A DNA stretch of 41,658 bases, taken from assembly GCA_023150915.1 (NCBI GenBank), contig JAKLKA010000056.1, positions 1 to 41,658 on the forward strand, in the 5' to 3' direction. The stretch comes from Polyangiaceae bacterium. Its GTDB lineage: Bacteria > Myxococcota_A > Polyangia > Polyangiales > Polyangiaceae. Position 1 is the stretch's first letter. Every line of letters starts with the position of its first letter. The position numbers and the translations under genes were made by a program. Under the pieces are notes generated by a model. The model had not been told where the DNA came from and did not search any database. It saw only the letters and a program-made list of their open reading frames with translations. This document shows, in pieces, positions 12,665-22,704 of this stretch.

Positions 12665-14293
12665 ATGACTTCCGCGATGTGCCAGTCGCCCTCGATCCAG
12701 GAGGCGCTGCAAGAGAGCGAACGCCGCTTCATGGACGTGCTCTACAACTCCGACGACGCCATCTTGCTGATTGGCGAAAACACCTTCGTGGACTGCAACG
12801 AGGCGACGGCGCGCATGCTGGGCTATCCCACGCGCCAAGAGTTCTTGCAGACCCACCCGTCCCAGCTGTCACCCCCGGTGCAGCCTTGCGGTCGAACCTC
12901 TTTCGAGAAGGCCGAAGAGATGATGCGCCGGGCCTGCGACAAGGGGTTTCATCGATTCGAGTGGATGCACCGAAAGGCGAACGGTGAAGACTTCCCGGTC
13001 GAGGTCTCGCTCACCCCCATCGTGCACGGTGGGAAGAACGTGCTGCACTGCGTGTGGCGTGACCTCACCGAGGTCAAGCGCGCCGAACGGGCGCTGCAAG
13101 AGAGCGAACGCCGCTTCATGGCCGTTCTATACGCCTCGGACGACGCCATCTTGCTGATCGGCGAGAACACCTTCGTGGATTGCAACGAGGCGACGGCGCG
13201 CATGCTGGGCTACCCCACACGCCACGAGTTCTTGCAGACGCACCCCTCGCAACTCTCGCCCCCGGTGCAACCGTGCGGCCGAAGCTCGTTCGAGAAGGCC
13301 GACCAGATGATGCGCTTGGCCCATGAAAAGGGGTTTCATCGCTTCGAGTGGGTCCACCGGAAGGCTGACGGCGAGGACTTTCCCGTCGAGGTTTCGCTCA
13401 CCCCCATCGTGCACGAGGGCAAGAGCCTGCTCTACTGCGTGTGGCGCGACCTCACCGAGCTCAAGCGCGCCGAGGCCGAGCTGCGCCAGGCCCAGAAGCT
13501 GCAGGCCGTGGGCCAGCTGGCAGCGGGCGTCGCCCACGAGATCAATACGCCGGCCCAGTTCGTGGGCGACAGCCTGCACTTTCTGTCCGACAGCTTCCGC
13601 GACATGCAGAACCTCTTGGGCGAGTATCGCAGGGCGCTGGCTGCGCTGTTGGCCGACGCCGAGCGCGAACAGGTGCAGAGCGAGCTGGCGGCAGCGGAAG
13701 ATGCGGCTGACCACGAATACGTGTCCGAGAACGCCCCGAGGGCTTTCGAGCGTGCCCTGGACGGCGTGGCACGCATCTCGACGCTGGTGCAGGCCATGAA
13801 AGAGTTCGCGCACCCGGGCAACAAGGAGAAGGCCCCCACGGATCTGAACCGCGCCCTTTCCACGACGCTGACCATCGCCAAGAACGAGTACAAGATGGTG
13901 GCCGACGTCGAGACCGACTTCGGCGAACTTCCCCCGGTGGCCTGCGTTTCAGGGGAGCTCAACCAGGTGTTTCTCAATCTGATCGTGAATGCGGCCCACG
14001 CCATCGCGGACGTCGTACGCGAGAGCGGCGGGCGGGGGGTGATCCGCGTGCGCACCCGCCAGGACGGGGGTCAGGTGCGGATCGAGATCTCGGACACGGG
14101 CGGCGGCATCCCCGATTCAGTCCAGCCCCGGGTCTTCGAACCCTTCTTCACGACCAAAGAGGTGGGTCGGGGCAGCGGGCAGGGGCTGGCCATCGCACGC
14201 ACGGTGGTGGTCGACAAACACGGTGGCGGTCTCACTTTCGAGAGCACGCCGGGCGAGGGCACCACCTTCGCGGTGGTCCTGCCGCTGTCCTGA
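12665..14293 (+). CDS. PAS-PAS sensor histidine kinase
   Basis: This 542-aa kinase has no membrane segment or signal peptide, so it is cytoplasmic. Two PAS domains (about residues 14-142 and 143-271) are nearly identical. Both contain DAILLIGENTFVDCNEATAR and end in WRDLTE.KRAE. The H-box is AAGVAHEINTP with phospho-acceptor His291. An inserted helical region (~300-390) separates it from the ATPase domain. The N-box NLIVNAAHAI, the G1 box ISDTGGGIP, the F-box FEPFFTTK and the G2 region GQGLAI are present. No response regulator lies beside it, so it is an orphan kinase here. It ends one base before the convergent ABC-permease gene. The ligand is unknown. Confidence 0.95.
   Translation: MTSAMCQSPSIQEALQESERRFMDVLYNSDDAILLIGENTFVDCNEATARMLGYPTRQEFLQTHPSQLSPPVQPCGRTSFEKAEEMMRRACDKGFHRFEWMHRKANGEDFPVEVSLTPIVHGGKNVLHCVWRDLTEVKRAERALQESERRFMAVLYASDDAILLIGENTFVDCNEATARMLGYPTRHEFLQTHPSQLSPPVQPCGRSSFEKADQMMRLAHEKGFHRFEWVHRKADGEDFPVEVSLTPIVHEGKSLLYCVWRDLTELKRAEAELRQAQKLQAVGQLAAGVAHEINTPAQFVGDSLHFLSDSFRDMQNLLGEYRRALAALLADAEREQVQSELAAAEDAADHEYVSENAPRAFERALDGVARISTLVQAMKEFAHPGNKEKAPTDLNRALSTTLTIAKNEYKMVADVETDFGELPPVACVSGELNQVFLNLIVNAAHAIADVVRESGGRGVIRVRTRQDGGQVRIEISDTGGGIPDSVQPRVFEPFFTTKEVGRGSGQGLAIARTVVVDKHGGGLTFESTPGEGTTFAVVLPLS
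12704..13477 (+). repeat. Tandem in-frame duplication of a PAS unit (2 x 387 bp)
   Basis: Two copies of a 129-codon unit lie head to tail, 12704-13090 and 13091-13477. By hand count 17 of the 129 residues differ, and many silent differences are also visible. The break falls exactly at the GCG CTG CAA GAG codons that start each unit, so the reading frame is kept. Confidence 0.9.
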
Positions 14294-18491: not shown

Positions 18492-19730
18492 ATGCGTCGG
18501 CGCTCGATGCTCGTCGCCGCGCTTCTCGCCACCGCCTGCGCGGACAAGGCCTCGGCCCCGAGCCCCAGCGGCAGCGCGAGCCCGGCGCCGTCGCCGCCCG
18601 CGGCCAGCTCGAGCGCAGCGCCGAGCGCCAGCGCGAGCGCCCGGCCGGTCACGGTCGCTCCGTCACCCGCGCTCGCCGCCTGCCCGGTGAGCATGGCAAA
18701 GATCCCGGGCGGCGCGTTTACGGTGGGCAGCGACACGCCGGGCTCGGCGCCCGAAGAGATGCCGCGCTTCGAGACCCAGGTTGCGACCTTCTGCCTGGGC
18801 GTGACCGAGGTCACGGTCGACGCCTATTCGGCGTGCGTGAGCGCCGGCAAGTGCGAGAAGGCCCACGACGAGGGGCGCTTCTGCAACACGCGCTTCTCCG
18901 ACCGCGGGGATCACCCGATGAACTGCGTGAGCTGGGGGCAAGCCCAGGCCTACTGCCAGGCGCAAGGGGCGCGGCTACCCACCGAGCTCGAGTGGGAATA
19001 CGCCGCCCGGGGCGGCGGCGAGTACCGCGCGTTCTCGTGGGGCTCGGAGTCGCCCGAGGGTCGAACCTGCTGGAAGCACATCGGCGGCTCGTGCAAGGTC
19101 AAGTCGTTCGCGGCCGGAGCGTTCGGCCTGTACGACATGATCGGCAATGTCTGGGAATGGACCGACGACTGGTTTGGCGACTACCCGTGGCCGCCCCCCG
19201 GCGGCACGAACAAGGTCTATCGCGGCGGCAGCTGGAGCCGGCGCTTCGTGAAGTGGATGAGCCCCAAGCTGCGCAATCGCTGGCCCCCGAAGCTGTCGGG
19301 CTCGCACCTGGGTTTCCGCTGCGCGCTGACCCCCGGCGACGTGATCTGTCCCTTCGGTCGCAGCGCAGATGGCCAGCGCTGCCAGCACGGCGTCACCACC
19401 ATGGCCTGCAGCGGCCGGACGAAGTGGAACGGCGTGCGCTGCGCCCGGGACGGCGAGCCCGAGTGCCCGGCGGGCAGCGAGAAGAAGCCGGGGCACGGCT
19501 GCGCCGTCGCGCTCGACGTGAAGGGTGCTCTGCCCGCCGCCGACACCGCGCCGGTGTCCCGGGTGCGGACGCCCACCCATGACGCGGACTGCCAGCAGAA
19601 CAAGCCCGGGCGCCCGAGCGCCTATCGTTACACCGGGGGGACGCACCACGCCCGCAACCAAGTCAGCGCAGCCGCCGGTTGCGCCAATCGCGATGTCGGA
19701 GTCGGATGGAACTCGACCTGCTGCCCCTGA
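18492..19730 (+). CDS. FGE-sulfatase-fold lipoprotein with Cys-rich tail
   Basis: This 412-aa protein has a signal sequence ending LLATAC (relaxed lipobox, Cys16), then a Ser/Ala/Pro tether to about residue 55. The FGE-sulfatase (formylglycine-generating-enzyme-like) domain covers ~60-280, with IPGGAFTVGS, LPTELEWEYAARGG, GNVWEWTDDW, YRGGSW and HLGFRCAL. The stretch where true FGE has its two catalytic cysteines is here WSRRFVKWMSPKLRNR and has none, so formylglycine formation is unlikely. A structural or other EgtB/PvdO-like role is more probable. An extra ~130-residue tail is rich in Cys and Gly and matches nothing I recognise. The start could also be the ATG 15 bases downstream. The gene overlaps the next by 25 bases. 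Confidence 0.85.
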   Translation: MRRRSMLVAALLATACADKASAPSPSGSASPAPSPPAASSSAAPSASASARPVTVAPSPALAACPVSMAKIPGGAFTVGSDTPGSAPEEMPRFETQVATFCLGVTEVTVDAYSACVSAGKCEKAHDEGRFCNTRFSDRGDHPMNCVSWGQAQAYCQAQGARLPTELEWEYAARGGGEYRAFSWGSESPEGRTCWKHIGGSCKVKSFAAGAFGLYDMIGNVWEWTDDWFGDYPWPPPGGTNKVYRGGSWSRRFVKWMSPKLRNRWPPKLSGSHLGFRCALTPGDVICPFGRSADGQRCQHGVTTMACSGRTKWNGVRCARDGEPECPAGSEKKPGHGCAVALDVKGALPAADTAPVSRVRTPTHDADCQQNKPGRPSAYRYTGGTHHARNQVSAAAGCANRDVGVGWNSTCCP

Positions 19731-20458
19731 TCGGTCTCTTGCTGGTGAGCTGCGCCCGCCCTGCGCCCGCGCCGGCCGAGCCGCCCCTGCCCACTCCGAC
19801 GGCAAGCGCCGCGCCCGTGCCCGCACCCCCGGCCACTGCGCCGTCGCCCGCTGCTCCTGCCCCGACCGCGAGCCCCGCGCCCGCGACCCCCGAGCCGGTG
19901 CCCGAGCCGCCGCCGGCGCCCCCACGCTTGCCCGAGGGCACGGTGGTCTTGCACATCGGCGACTCGATGGCGGGCGCGCTGGGCGTGGCGCTGAACGACG
20001 AGCTGAAGCAGCACAACGTGAAGGGGATCTTGCGCTTCAAGACCGCCAGCTACATCCCCGGCTGGGCGGGCGGGCAAGAGCTGCCGCTGCACCTCTCGCA
20101 GATGAAGCCCGATCTGGTGCTGATCACGCTGGGCACGAACGAGGTGAAGATGCCCGATCCGACCCAGCGCGCGCCGCTGGTGAAGAAGATCGTGAAGCTG
20201 ATCGGCGATCGCCCGTGCGTGTGGATCGCGCCGCCGATCTGGACCGAAGAGCGCGGCCTGTACCAGGTGATCCGCGACAACGTGGCGCCGTGCCGCTACA
20301 TGGACACCGAGGTGGTCTACCCGCGGATGCCGCGTCTGGGCGACAAGATCCACCCGACGATCAACGCTCGCAAAGAGTGGGCGAAGCGCGTGGTGGCGTG
20401 GCTGGCCAAGGAGCGAGAGCCTGCCGCCGGCAAGCCGTGGGCGCTTCGCAGCGAGTGA
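19706..20458 (+). CDS. SGNH/GDSL-hydrolase lipoprotein
   Basis: This 250-aa protein has a signal ending LLLVSC (Cys16), then a Pro/Ala-rich tether to about residue 75. The SGNH-hydrolase domain follows. Visible blocks are HIGDSMAG with nucleophile Ser87, LGTNE with Asn145, and DKIHP with Asp213 and His216. Such enzymes deacylate lipids or remove O-acetyl groups from envelope polysaccharides; the substrate here is unknown. The start within the FGE-like gene gives a 25-base overlap, so the two lipoproteins are probably co-translated. The reading frame ends just where a LuxR-type HTH scar begins in another frame, so its last residues may be non-native. Confidence 0.88.
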   Translation: MELDLLPLIGLLLVSCARPAPAPAEPPLPTPTASAAPVPAPPATAPSPAAPAPTASPAPATPEPVPEPPPAPPRLPEGTVVLHIGDSMAGALGVALNDELKQHNVKGILRFKTASYIPGWAGGQELPLHLSQMKPDLVLITLGTNEVKMPDPTQRAPLVKKIVKLIGDRPCVWIAPPIWTEERGLYQVIRDNVAPCRYMDTEVVYPRMPRLGDKIHPTINARKEWAKRVVAWLAKEREPAAGKPWALRSE

Positions 20459-20591
20459 CCGCGTGGTCGCCGCCACCGTGGCCCTGGGGCAGCCGCAGAA
20501 GCGGATCGCCTACGAGCTGGGGCTGTCGCGGGCGACGGTCTCGCGCACGCTCTCGTCCGCCTTGACGAAGCTGGGCTGCGCGACCCGCGAC
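20436..20591 (+). pseudogene. Remnant of a LuxR-type helix-turn-helix domain
   Basis: In the +3 frame (same frame as the GTG at 20463) this DNA reads FAASDRVVAATVALG, then KRIAYELGLSRATVSRTL and ALTKLGCATRD. This is the conserved DNA-binding end of LuxR/GerE-type regulators, especially the myxobacterial form with IAYELGLS. There is no N-terminal part: upstream is the SGNH gene in another frame, and downstream it runs directly into the hairpin repeats. I read it as a decayed 3' fragment left by a rearrangement. Translation of the fragment alone is possible from GTG 20463 but unlikely to be functional. Confidence 0.7.
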
Positions 20592-20762
20592 GAACACGCC
20601 CCTGTTCCGCGCCTCCTGTCCACCCGGTGGACACAAGCAGAGGAACACGGCCCGTGTTCCGCGCGTCCTGTCCGCCCGGTGGACACAAGCTGAGGAACAC
20701 GCCCGTGTTCCGCGCCTCCTGTCCGCCCGGTGGACACAAGCTGAGGAACACGGCCCGTGTTC
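20592..20762. repeat. Tandem array of a 51-52 bp double-palindrome repeat (about 3.3 copies)
   Basis: Units begin at 20592, 20643 and 20695, and a partial fourth covers 20746-20762. Each has two hairpins. One is GAACACGGCCCGTGTTC (7-3-7), shortened by a base or altered in some copies. The other is TGTCCACCCGGTGGACA (8-1-8) in unit 1, with one A-to-G change in the other units that makes a G-T pair. The array fills the space between the convergent SGNH and acyl-CoA synthetase genes. It may act as a bidirectional terminator or mRNA-stability element, or be a small mobile or expanding repeat. It has no variable spacers, so it is not a CRISPR array. Confidence 0.85.
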
Positions 20763-20773
20763 ACCGAGCGGCA

Positions 20774-22603
20774 CTACTGCGCCGAGAGCAGCTCGTCCTT
20801 CGACGCGAACAGGGACTCGATCTCGGCGGCGTATTTCTGCGCGATGACGTTGCGCTTGATCTTCATGGTCGGCGTCAGCTCGCCGCCATCGACCGAGAAG
20901 GCGACCGGCAGGACGCGGATGCGCTTGATGGTCTGGTACCGCGCGACCTTGGTGTTGCAGTGCGCCTCGATGGCGGCAAACAAGTGCTTCTCCACCTTGG
21001 GATCCTTCGCCATGTTCTCGAGCGAATCCTTCTGCGTGCCGGCGTCGGCGGCCAAACCGTCGAGGTTCTCGGGGTCGAGCACCAGCAGCGCCGCCAGGAA
21101 CGGCATGCGGTCGCCGACCACCACGGCCTGGGCAATCCCGCGGATCTGGTTCACGTACCCTTCCATCTCTGCCGGTGCCACGTTCTTGCCTCCGGCGGTG
21201 ATCAGCAGGTCCTTCTTCCGGCCCGTGATCTTCAGGTACCCGTCCGGGTCGAAGGCCCCGAGATCGCCGGTGTGGACCCAGCCCTCGGCGTCGATCAGCT
21301 CCTCTGTCTCGGCGGGCATGCGCAGATAGCCGCGGGTCATGGTGCGACCCCGCGCGAGGATCTCCCCGTCGTCGGCGACCTTCACCTCGCAGCCCTCGAG
21401 CGGCGTCCCGACCGTCCCGAAGCGGGCCTCGCCCAGGCGACAGCCGGTGACGATCCCGGTCGTCTCGCTCATCCCGTAATACTCGTGGATGGCGATGCCC
21501 AGCGACGCGAAGAACTTCAGCGTCCCCACCGAGATCGGGGCGGCGGCGGTGCCGGCCATGACCAGCCGCTCGAGCCCAAGGGCCGCGCGCACCTTGCCGA
21601 GCACCAGCTTGTGGGCGAGCGAGCGGCCCAGGCCCGTGACCGGGGCCTTCTCGGCAAGCTCGCGGGTCATCGCCGCGAGCTCGGTGTCCCGAGCCCAGCG
21701 GGCGAGCGTGCCCTTGATCCCGGTCGTGGCCGAGAGCTTCGCCTCGAGCGCGGCCTGGAACTTCTCCCAGACGCGCGGCACGGCCACGAACACCGTCGGG
21801 CGGGCCTCGAGCAGGTGGTCTTTCACCTGGGAAATATCGGGGCAGAAGTAGACCTCGCCTCCGGCCCCCATCGACATCAGGTTCGTCATGATCTGCTCGG
21901 CGATGTGGCAGAGCGGCAGGTAGCTCACGACGATGTAGGGCTTGCGATCGGGCCCGCGAAAGATCGGAACGTGGTTGAAGAGCATCTCCTGCATGCCGAG
22001 GAGATTGCCGTGGTCGAGCATCACGCCCTTCGCGATGCCGGTCGTCCCCGACGTGTAGATGAGCAGGCAGGTGTCGTCGTGCCCGAGCGATGCCAGGCGC
22101 GCGTCGAGCTCGGTGTCCGGTTCGGCCCGCCCCTTGTCACGGAGCACGGTCAGGCTCATGGCCTGGTCGTCTGCCCCGTCGAGCATGGCGATCAGGTGCT
22201 CGACCTGCACCTGGCCCGGGTCGAGGGCGACGGCCGCGCGATACCGATCGACCAGCGCCTTGGTGTCCGCGATGGCGATCTTCGCGCGCGAGTTGCGGAG
22301 GATGTGCGCAAACTGCTCGACCGTGTTGGTCGGGTAGCCCGGCGCCGGGATCCCCTTGGCCGCCATGATCCCGAACTGGCACACCACCCACTCCATCCGG
22401 TTCGCACCGACCACCGCCACGCAGTCGCCCGGCTGGTGCCCGAGCGCGATCAGGCCCTTGGCGACCTCGCGCACCTGGGCGAAGTACTCGGCCCAGGTCA
22501 GCGTCTTCCACGCACCATCGACCTTGCCGTGGATGGCGGGTGCGTCGGGCGTCTCACGGGCGTGCGTCGCAAGTTGGTGGACCAGGCTCTGCGGGCTCTT
22601 CAT
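20774..22603 (-). CDS. Long-chain fatty acid-CoA ligase (AMP-forming)
   Basis: This 609-aa adenylate-forming enzyme activates a fatty acid with ATP and transfers it to CoA. The phosphate loop is YTSGTTGIAKG (183-193), the A5 motif YGMSETTG (376-383), and the A7/A8 motifs HTGDLG (444-449) and GRKKDLLITAGGKNVAP (461-477). It matches the FadD15/FAA1-like long-chain group with the longer insertion after residue 290. The start ATG at 22603 fits the family; an in-frame ATG 27 bases upstream would add nine residues. The end is convergent with the SGNH gene across the hairpin array. A role in beta-oxidation or lipid remodelling is likely, chain length unknown. Confidence 0.94.
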   Translation of the reverse strand: MKSPQSLVHQLATHARETPDAPAIHGKVDGAWKTLTWAEYFAQVREVAKGLIALGHQPGDCVAVVGANRMEWVVCQFGIMAAKGIPAPGYPTNTVEQFAHILRNSRAKIAIADTKALVDRYRAAVALDPGQVQVEHLIAMLDGADDQAMSLTVLRDKGRAEPDTELDARLASLGHDDTCLLIYTSGTTGIAKGVMLDHGNLLGMQEMLFNHVPIFRGPDRKPYIVVSYLPLCHIAEQIMTNLMSMGAGGEVYFCPDISQVKDHLLEARPTVFVAVPRVWEKFQAALEAKLSATTGIKGTLARWARDTELAAMTRELAEKAPVTGLGRSLAHKLVLGKVRAALGLERLVMAGTAAAPISVGTLKFFASLGIAIHEYYGMSETTGIVTGCRLGEARFGTVGTPLEGCEVKVADDGEILARGRTMTRGYLRMPAETEELIDAEGWVHTGDLGAFDPDGYLKITGRKKDLLITAGGKNVAPAEMEGYVNQIRGIAQAVVVGDRMPFLAALLVLDPENLDGLAADAGTQKDSLENMAKDPKVEKHLFAAIEAHCNTKVARYQTIKRIRVLPVAFSVDGGELTPTMKIKRNVIAQKYAAEIESLFASKDELLSAQ

Positions 22604-22704
22604 GGCTTCGTTTCGGGGGTGGCCGACCATCGTAGGTCGTGCTCACGGTCACGTCGATGGCAGAGCGGGGCAGGCCCCCCCCCTACTGCGAGCCGGCGAT
22701 CGGC

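Follow-up and report, generated by a model that had tools for sequence, protein, structure and literature searches.

The window, by which we mean the whole stretch of 41,658 nucleotides analyzed here, lies on contig C281 of the source genome (G000) and carries a tandem array of palindromic repeats between the 3' ends of two genes. We refer to the two genus mates of the source genome as G001 and G002, and to contigs and loci by C and L numbers, respectively. The features around the array are:

19706 to 20458, plus strand: left neighbor, SGNH/GDSL-like hydrolase, 3' end towards the array (Pfam PF13472, E = 4.9e-5, below the cut-off)
20460 to 20591, plus strand: stretch resembling the C-terminus of a LuxR-type HTH protein, between the stop of the left gene and the array
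20592 to 20762, no strand assigned: type-A tandem array, 3.3 units of 51-52 bp
20592 to 20608, no strand assigned: palindrome P1, first copy, degenerate (GAACACGCCCCTGTTC)
20617 to 20633, no strand assigned: palindrome P2, unit 1, perfect 8-1-8, TGTCCACC-C-GGTGGACA
20642 to 20660, no strand assigned: palindrome P1, second copy, GGAACACG GCC CGTGTTCC
20669 to 20685, no strand assigned: palindrome P2, unit 2, G replacing A, giving G-T on the plus strand
20694 to 20711, no strand assigned: palindrome P1, third copy
20720 to 20736, no strand assigned: palindrome P2, unit 3, G replacing A, giving G-T on the plus strand
20745 to 20762, no strand assigned: palindrome P1, last copy, end of the array
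20774 to 22630, minus strand: right neighbor, FadD-like AMP-binding acyl-CoA ligase (Pfam AMP-binding, E = 1.1e-70)

The two flanking genes converge, as the initial annotation had stated (ends at 20458, plus strand, and 20774, minus strand), and the ligase gene ends about 12 bp from the array. The LuxR-like stretch of 44 residues follows directly after the stop codon of the left gene, runs into the array and shows 48-65% identity with sequences in G000, G001 and G002; it is probably a gene remnant. Elsewhere in the window, a 387-bp repeat occurs in two copies (12703-13552, 86% alike) inside a called gene (12677-14293) and may represent a recently duplicated PAS-like sensor domain.

About 3.3 tandem units of 51-52 bp had been annotated, each with two palindromes, of which the second was said to be a perfect 8-1-8 palindrome in unit 1 (20617-20633), and we could reproduce all of this. 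TRF delimited the array in the window at 20592-20762 with a period of 52, 3.3 copies, 93% matches and a score of 300, and the spacing of direct repeats within it is 52 and then 51. Each unit runs from P1 (GGAACACG-loop-CGTGTTCC) over an 8-bp spacer to P2 (TGTCCRCC-C-GGTGGACA in the window) and a second 8-bp spacer; P1 is degenerate in unit 1 and good in the three later copies. The fold of 20580-20775 is far more stable than that of dinucleotide shuffles (z = -7.6 and -7.4 for the two strands, 0 of 200 shuffles equal), as is expected of any tandem palindrome. The view that the array is neither CRISPR nor a known REP sequence also stood: the units are contiguous and alike, with no unique spacers separating the repeats in the window array or the other type-A arrays. 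An Rfam search of 19500-22000 returned nothing above the gathering score, the match over the array reaching 23.4 bits vs. 90. At the window array, the hairpins are not followed by the T-run of an intrinsic terminator, and the sole match to a terminator pattern in 20300-20900 (20839-20855) lies within the ligase gene.

Confinement of the repeat to this one place had been named as a finding that would count against the initial annotation, and it is not the case. When the window array was used as a query against the source genome (295 contigs, 8.0 Mb in total), type-A arrays emerged at nine places, namely on C281 (the window), C15, C26 (twice), C40, C57, C67, C200 and C205. The count is nine, or eight if the ends of C200 and C57 represent one locus, for which no exact overlap over 10 bases was found. 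Three of the nine arrays are located at contig ends, indicating that the assembly breaks within arrays. The family comprises about 40 units with a P2-to-P2 spacing of 51 or 52 between full units, none of which overlaps a called gene; it is thus palindromic, extragenic and present at multiple loci, as REP/BIME elements are. Searching G000 with P2 alone (one mismatch allowed) revealed more 52-bp arrays, at C205:62174-62709, at C205:63716-63940 and on C240. The two on C205, which we call type B, have P2 in common with type A and a different partner palindrome. A mosaic at C205:70110-70586 (L093:9811-10287) leads from about 3.3 type-B-like units straight into units of type A, with the 52-bp pitch common to the two kinds. 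A different repeat of 32 bp (5.7 copies at 98%) was observed at L088:12761-12942, between the second array on C26 (C26b) and the next gene end.

Outside the source genome, type-A arrays were not found in the two genus mates. A 23-base core pattern occurred in one of 183 genomes of the order, G000 itself, with 16 occurrences per strand, and an exact scan of a named genome collection, which may omit the source genome, gave no match. A family-wide DNA search yielded matches in 3 of 108 genomes, being G000 and two genomes with a single match of <40 bp each; upon inspection of their sequence, we rejected these two as arrays. Homology with G001 and G002 stops at the ligase stop codon, and no arrays are present at the orthologous ligase ends of either genome. 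We considered the array as a synteny breakpoint and rejected this, since both flanks of the ligase are non-syntenic in G001 and G002 and the array therefore marks no special break. In these non-syntenic ligase surroundings, an empty site for the type-A array was not found.

For 11 array loci, both neighboring genes could be called (the window, C15, C26 twice, C40, C205 three times, C240, C68 and C110, with the contig-end arrays on C57, C67 and C200 and further places of type C, described below, omitted). The flanks are convergent at six, tandem at five and divergent at none of these, as judged with a simple gene caller and with a weak call for the gene left of the array at C205:62097. Among 116 background gaps of at least 50 bp in a sample of G000, 15 were convergent, 60 tandem and 41 divergent (uncorrected P = 0.0012 for six or more convergent loci, P = 0.008 for no divergent one). 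At C57, C67 and C200, the neighboring gene ends at the array in all three cases. On C40 the array occupies the entire gap between two gene ends, and on C240 it lies at most 20 bp from both. This placement fits both a tolerated insertion behind genes and a role at transcript ends. The latter would make the array a bidirectional transcription terminator, or an mRNA 3'-end stabilizer, that is selected as RNA; the arrays behind genes with 6 of 11 flanks convergent, the tight fit on C40 and C240 and hairpins that are stable on both strands speak for such a function.

Selection for folding had also been suggested by seemingly compensating changes in P2, a suggestion that did not hold. Over 38 aligned family units (34 distinct), both sides were changed at 0 of 14 stem pairs (shuffle mean 0.8), and 93.5% of stem cells were paired vs. 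93.8% with shuffled 3' letters. Slid controls paired at 22-55%, which demonstrates that the arms are complementary, yet the variation in the arms is one-sided. The alignment contains 38 of 40 extracted units, two poor rows from C205 having been dropped and three edge copies of P2 without P1 skipped earlier. The related statement that the G-T pair of units 2 and 3 keeps the RNA hairpin is true of the plus strand (-8.0 kcal/mol for P2 of window unit 2) and fails for the minus strand, where the hairpin is weakened to -5.0 kcal/mol. At this variable pair of P2, G-T is the commonest state among the 34 distinct units (G-T 19, G-C 13, A-T 1), the A-T of window unit 1 being the exception (1 of 34).

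Across all extracted units, the six pairs of P2 hold 22 G-T vs. 2 A-C cells, and P1 shows the opposite trend (16 A-C vs. 6 G-T, plus 20 other mismatches). The orientation of type-A arrays relative to the adjoining gene end is sense at C26a and C57 and antisense at C26b, C67, C200 and C205; the window, C15 and C40 have convergent flanks. Because the mismatch biases of P1 and P2 are opposed, the array orientation varies and compensation is absent, selection on one RNA strand is unsupported, and the pattern does not look like that of one selected RNA strand. Taken with the lack of a T-run, the orthologous ligase ends without an array in G001 and G002 and the confinement of the core pattern to G000 among the 183 genomes of the order, this leads us to regard a terminator or stabilizer as unlikely.

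A protein-coding gene lies between two of the arrays on C205:

C205:62739 to 63560, minus strand: gene for a REP-associated tyrosine transposase (RAYT), 274 residues, between 52-bp arrays of 11.7 and 6.2 copies that share P2

We came upon the gene by inspecting the sequence that separates the arrays, since Pfam Y1_Tnp gave no match in the G000 genome; this model does not match the RAYT members described below either. The protein contains the motifs PEHFHLL and YIHLNPCR and matches NCBIfam REP_Tyr_transpos with E = 7.9e-8 (score 32.3, below the curated cut-off of 80), a profile that matches 15 of 15 aligned relatives at E ≤ 0.01. HxH and Y..LNP are invariant in these 15 members (in L133 and L138 of alignment A1, T or P stands between the two histidines), so that a RAYT with HUH motif and catalytic tyrosine is present, as in a REPtron. 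The sequence match of the C205 protein to the solved REP transposase 4er8 is weak (E = 0.024). For evidence from the fold, a relative from G002 with 68% identity was modeled (mean pLDDT 94). Foldseek found 4er8 as the sole match below 0.001 (E = 1.1e-4), and 4er8 was also the best match in VIA-align (Z = 14.3, 136 residues, rmsd 2.4; next row 8.2). Judged by motif, profile and the predicted fold of this relative, the product of the C205 gene is a RAYT. Its C-terminal domain, modeled alone from the G002 relative (pLDDT 89), gave no significant Foldseek match; in the best re-aligned rows it matched DnaA domain IV with Z = 8.7 (76 residues, rmsd 2.4) and 7.9, followed by TrpR with 5.2. Pfam HTH models match few RAYT members, and weakly. 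In its predicted fold, the RAYT tail thus resembles DnaA domain IV.

A homology search with the C205 protein in 183 genomes gave matches in 27. G000 itself has four, on C205, at C26:11562-12374, on C123 and as a fragment on C30. Between the start of the C26 gene and the type-A array C26b, which has 5.1 copies, there are 72 bp. The C123 protein (L143, G000:C123:232-1206) and its counterpart in G002 (L144:3825-4790, G002:C31) are 72% identical and have lost both HxH and the catalytic tyrosine. These motif-less paralogues are retained as open frames and have perhaps been exapted as a DNA-binding protein.

We compared the surroundings of 24 RAYT genes (12 genomes, with G000 contributing three genes) with those of 602 control genes on forty stretches of 5.7-20 kb from G000 and G001. 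The 24 derive from 29 places, from which five fragments or broken genes (L151-L155) were left out; 15 genomes with weak RAYT matches alone lay outside the array count. A non-coding tandem array with a period of 50-53 bp was present within 1 kb of 9 of the 24 RAYT genes vs. 3 of the 602 controls (Fisher P = 7.0e-12, and 1.4e-10 without the C205 RAYT, which was discovered through its arrays), values that are optimistic because the RAYTs are related and only 2 of the 12 genomes supplied controls. For periods of 40-60 bp, the numbers were 15 of 24 vs. 5 of 602. Within the control genomes G000 and G001, an array adjoins three of four RAYTs (those on C205 and C26 and that of G001, not that on C123). 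By TRF alone, ten RAYTs have a 51-52 bp array, and the strict count of nine drops L138, where the array overlaps the ORF. The remaining 15 RAYTs without a 50-53 bp array include several at contig ends. Contig-end arrays are frequent in general (C57:1, the ends of C67 and C200, and C152:1 in G000; C95:1, C108:1 and C125:1 in G002), so that copy numbers are to be read as minimum values and some RAYT genes could have been severed from their flanks.

The repeat sequences beside the RAYTs differ between species, and we traced the dispersal of two such arrays, one from G002 and one from G001. The former, type C, has relatives on 16 other G002 contigs; ten contigs of G000 (C68, C110, C129, C152, C249 and others) also carry relatives of it, with identities of 73-87%. 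The latter occurs at nine other places in G001 (weakest E = 9e-4) and was found in neither G000 nor G002. No 50-53 bp array lies within 1 kb of the motif-less L143 and L144 (C123 has 231 bp of upstream sequence); L144 has a 46-bp array of 1.9 copies at a distance of 570 bp. As a single case, this pair points the same way, to a link between RAYT and array.

Named relatives of the RAYT protein numbered 68, of which 18 were places already included. The other 50, from which coding arrays were not filtered, come mostly from outside the family; a 50-53 bp array lay no farther than 1 kb from one of them (L212, 53 bp, 1.9 copies), and four had arrays of 31-36 bp. L252 and L254 (Deltaproteobacteria bacterium GEM2.Bin11), which lie near 31-bp tandem arrays, illustrate such a different pitch. 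From the one case in 50 we conclude that the array link is peculiar to this RAYT clade and does not extend to RAYT-like proteins at large. The same figure suits a passive minisatellite that is copied by recombination or insertion sequences and accompanies the RAYT by accident, as do the slippage-like steps of 51 and 52 between units and the several arrays at contig ends, where unstable or repeated DNA would be expected. The enrichment beside RAYTs over controls, with different repeat sequences in different species, speaks against a passive repeat.

At the five loci where repeats flank the RAYT left and right, these are chiefly direct and not inverted. The C205 repeats match directly over 313 bp at 90% with no inverted match, L132 likewise has no inverted match, and at L137, L142 and L149 the inverted matches are weaker than the direct ones. 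A GTAG or GTGG head 0-2 nt 5' of the stem was not found at the array hairpins in 22 array stretches, 18 of which have perfect hairpins of at least 7 bp; the single headed hairpin lies in the flank of the C15 array, outside the array itself. A search of the 400 bp to the left and right of the 24 RAYT genes for terminal inverted repeats of the form GGGG[AT][CG]A[CG] found them on both sides of none and on a single side of two.

We further analyzed the spacing of dyads in 15 array consensus units and 2 controls, each against 1000 shuffles. In 5 of the 15 units (type A twice, type B, and the RAYT-side arrays L137 from G018 and L142 from G022) exactly half of the period (26 or 25.5 bp) separates the two best dyad axes, a spacing reached by 0-5 of 1000 shuffles. 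For type A the number is 2 of 1000, so that two inverted elements alternate regularly, as in REP/BIME. Even spacing is not general: the other 10 units gave 44-761 of 1000 shuffles, type C not being significant, and the single-axis palindromicity of most of them is within that of shuffles. In types A and B the centers of P1 and P2 are separated by 26 bp, which makes about 2.5 helical turns. One may view the even-dyad arrays as successive copies of a 26-bp element whose orientation alternates, an arrangement that corresponds to the BIME plan of REP elements as it is described in the consulted part of PMC2817692.

The half-period distance between two dyads in four families (P2 being common to A and B) also argues against the passive minisatellite, and we hold this explanation to be very unlikely. 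The same spacing could instead suit an array of protein-binding sites serving as a nucleoid, partition or replication landmark, with the DnaA-like tail of the RAYT as the binder or not. The 2.5 turns between P1 and P2 in types A and B, the half-period spacing in two other families and the predicted resemblance of the tail to DnaA domain IV (Z = 8.7 and 7.9) would agree with this. Set against it are a sequence that is not conserved in relatives and the absence of even spacing in 10 of 15 units, and we consider binding sites quite unlikely as the explanation.

We therefore favor, with good though not full confidence, the reading that the window array represents one of several loci of a dispersed, BIME-like and RAYT-linked family of extragenic tandem palindromes that lacks the GTAG head and is lodged behind genes. 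The family would be a variant of the known REP/BIME-RAYT kind. As a mechanism, we infer that the RAYT, an HUH/Y1 single-strand DNA nuclease, would bind hairpins in single-stranded DNA, for instance during lagging-strand replication, and would nick and rejoin them, thereby seeding new copies. Tandem number might then shift by slippage or unequal exchange, and copies would survive chiefly where they are least harmful, behind genes. Effects on transcript ends, if any, would be secondary; both transposition and any role in termination are suggested here from the arrangement of repeats and genes.

A broader proposal, which we consider possible but doubtful, is that Polyangiales harbor a headless class of RAYT repeats. 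An HUH nuclease with a DnaA-domain-IV-like double-strand binder would maintain direct arrays of alternating elements of about 26 bp, with dyads every 2.5 turns; the tail would dock on the double-stranded array or on the replication fork, the HUH core would process the hairpins, and the repeats would be species-specific on a 51-52 bp pitch. DnaA-like tails occur in a large group of relatives of Y1 transposases, and just flanking terminal inverted repeats had previously been proposed for this group. Since RAYTs with such a predicted tail adjoin dispersed tandem palindromes here, candidate substrates can now be named. Additionally, a constant pitch of 51-52 bp with changing sequence leads to a simple prediction on how such repeats arise.

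Among known systems, the yafM REPtron of E. coli with its BIME-2 elements is similar in its dispersed extragenic palindromes, regular tandem clusters and two kinds in alternation; in the part of the report consulted, BIME-2 flanks the E. coli rayt on both sides and REPs are given as usually >100 copies (PMC2817692). Unlike REP/BIME-2 and RAYT, the arrays described here have no GT(A/G)G head, a period of 51-52 bp and fewer loci, are direct and not inverted around the gene, and accompany a RAYT with a predicted DnaA-like tail. As the head is missing and the repeats beside the gene are direct, this is not a canonical REPtron. The REPIN/REP arrays of P. fluorescens SBW25 are similar in that REPs of two types, in both orientations, make up highly ordered tandem arrays, according to the section covered (PMC3116915). 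The GI-GIII arrays described there advance in steps of 184 bp (112 + 72), whereas the units here measure 51-52 bp with no longer spacer. Our literature search, whose coverage left out most subscription journals, returned no paper on REP/RAYT repeats of myxobacteria.

With TIRYT/TIRtron (PMC3733652) and TnpA-Y1 subclass 2.1 (PMC6006769), as far as the excerpts of these two sources extend, the system shares a Y1 protein, a Y---NP motif and an HTH or DnaA-like C-terminal domain, the last predicted here by fold alone on the G002 relative. There, too, the repeats beside the gene may belong to families, and double palindromes can occur among them. The terminal inverted repeats described for TIRYT, many with GGGGWSAS (excerpt of PMC3733652), have no counterpart here, as GGGGWSAS inverted repeats on both sides are absent. 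For subclass 2.1, the consulted part of the 2018 survey reports no REP-like sequences nearby (PMC6006769); unlike this subclass as reported there, tandem palindromic arrays are both near the gene and dispersed in our case. Nevertheless, the predicted DnaA-like tail points to a place for these RAYTs near the subclass 2.1 or TIRYT proteins.
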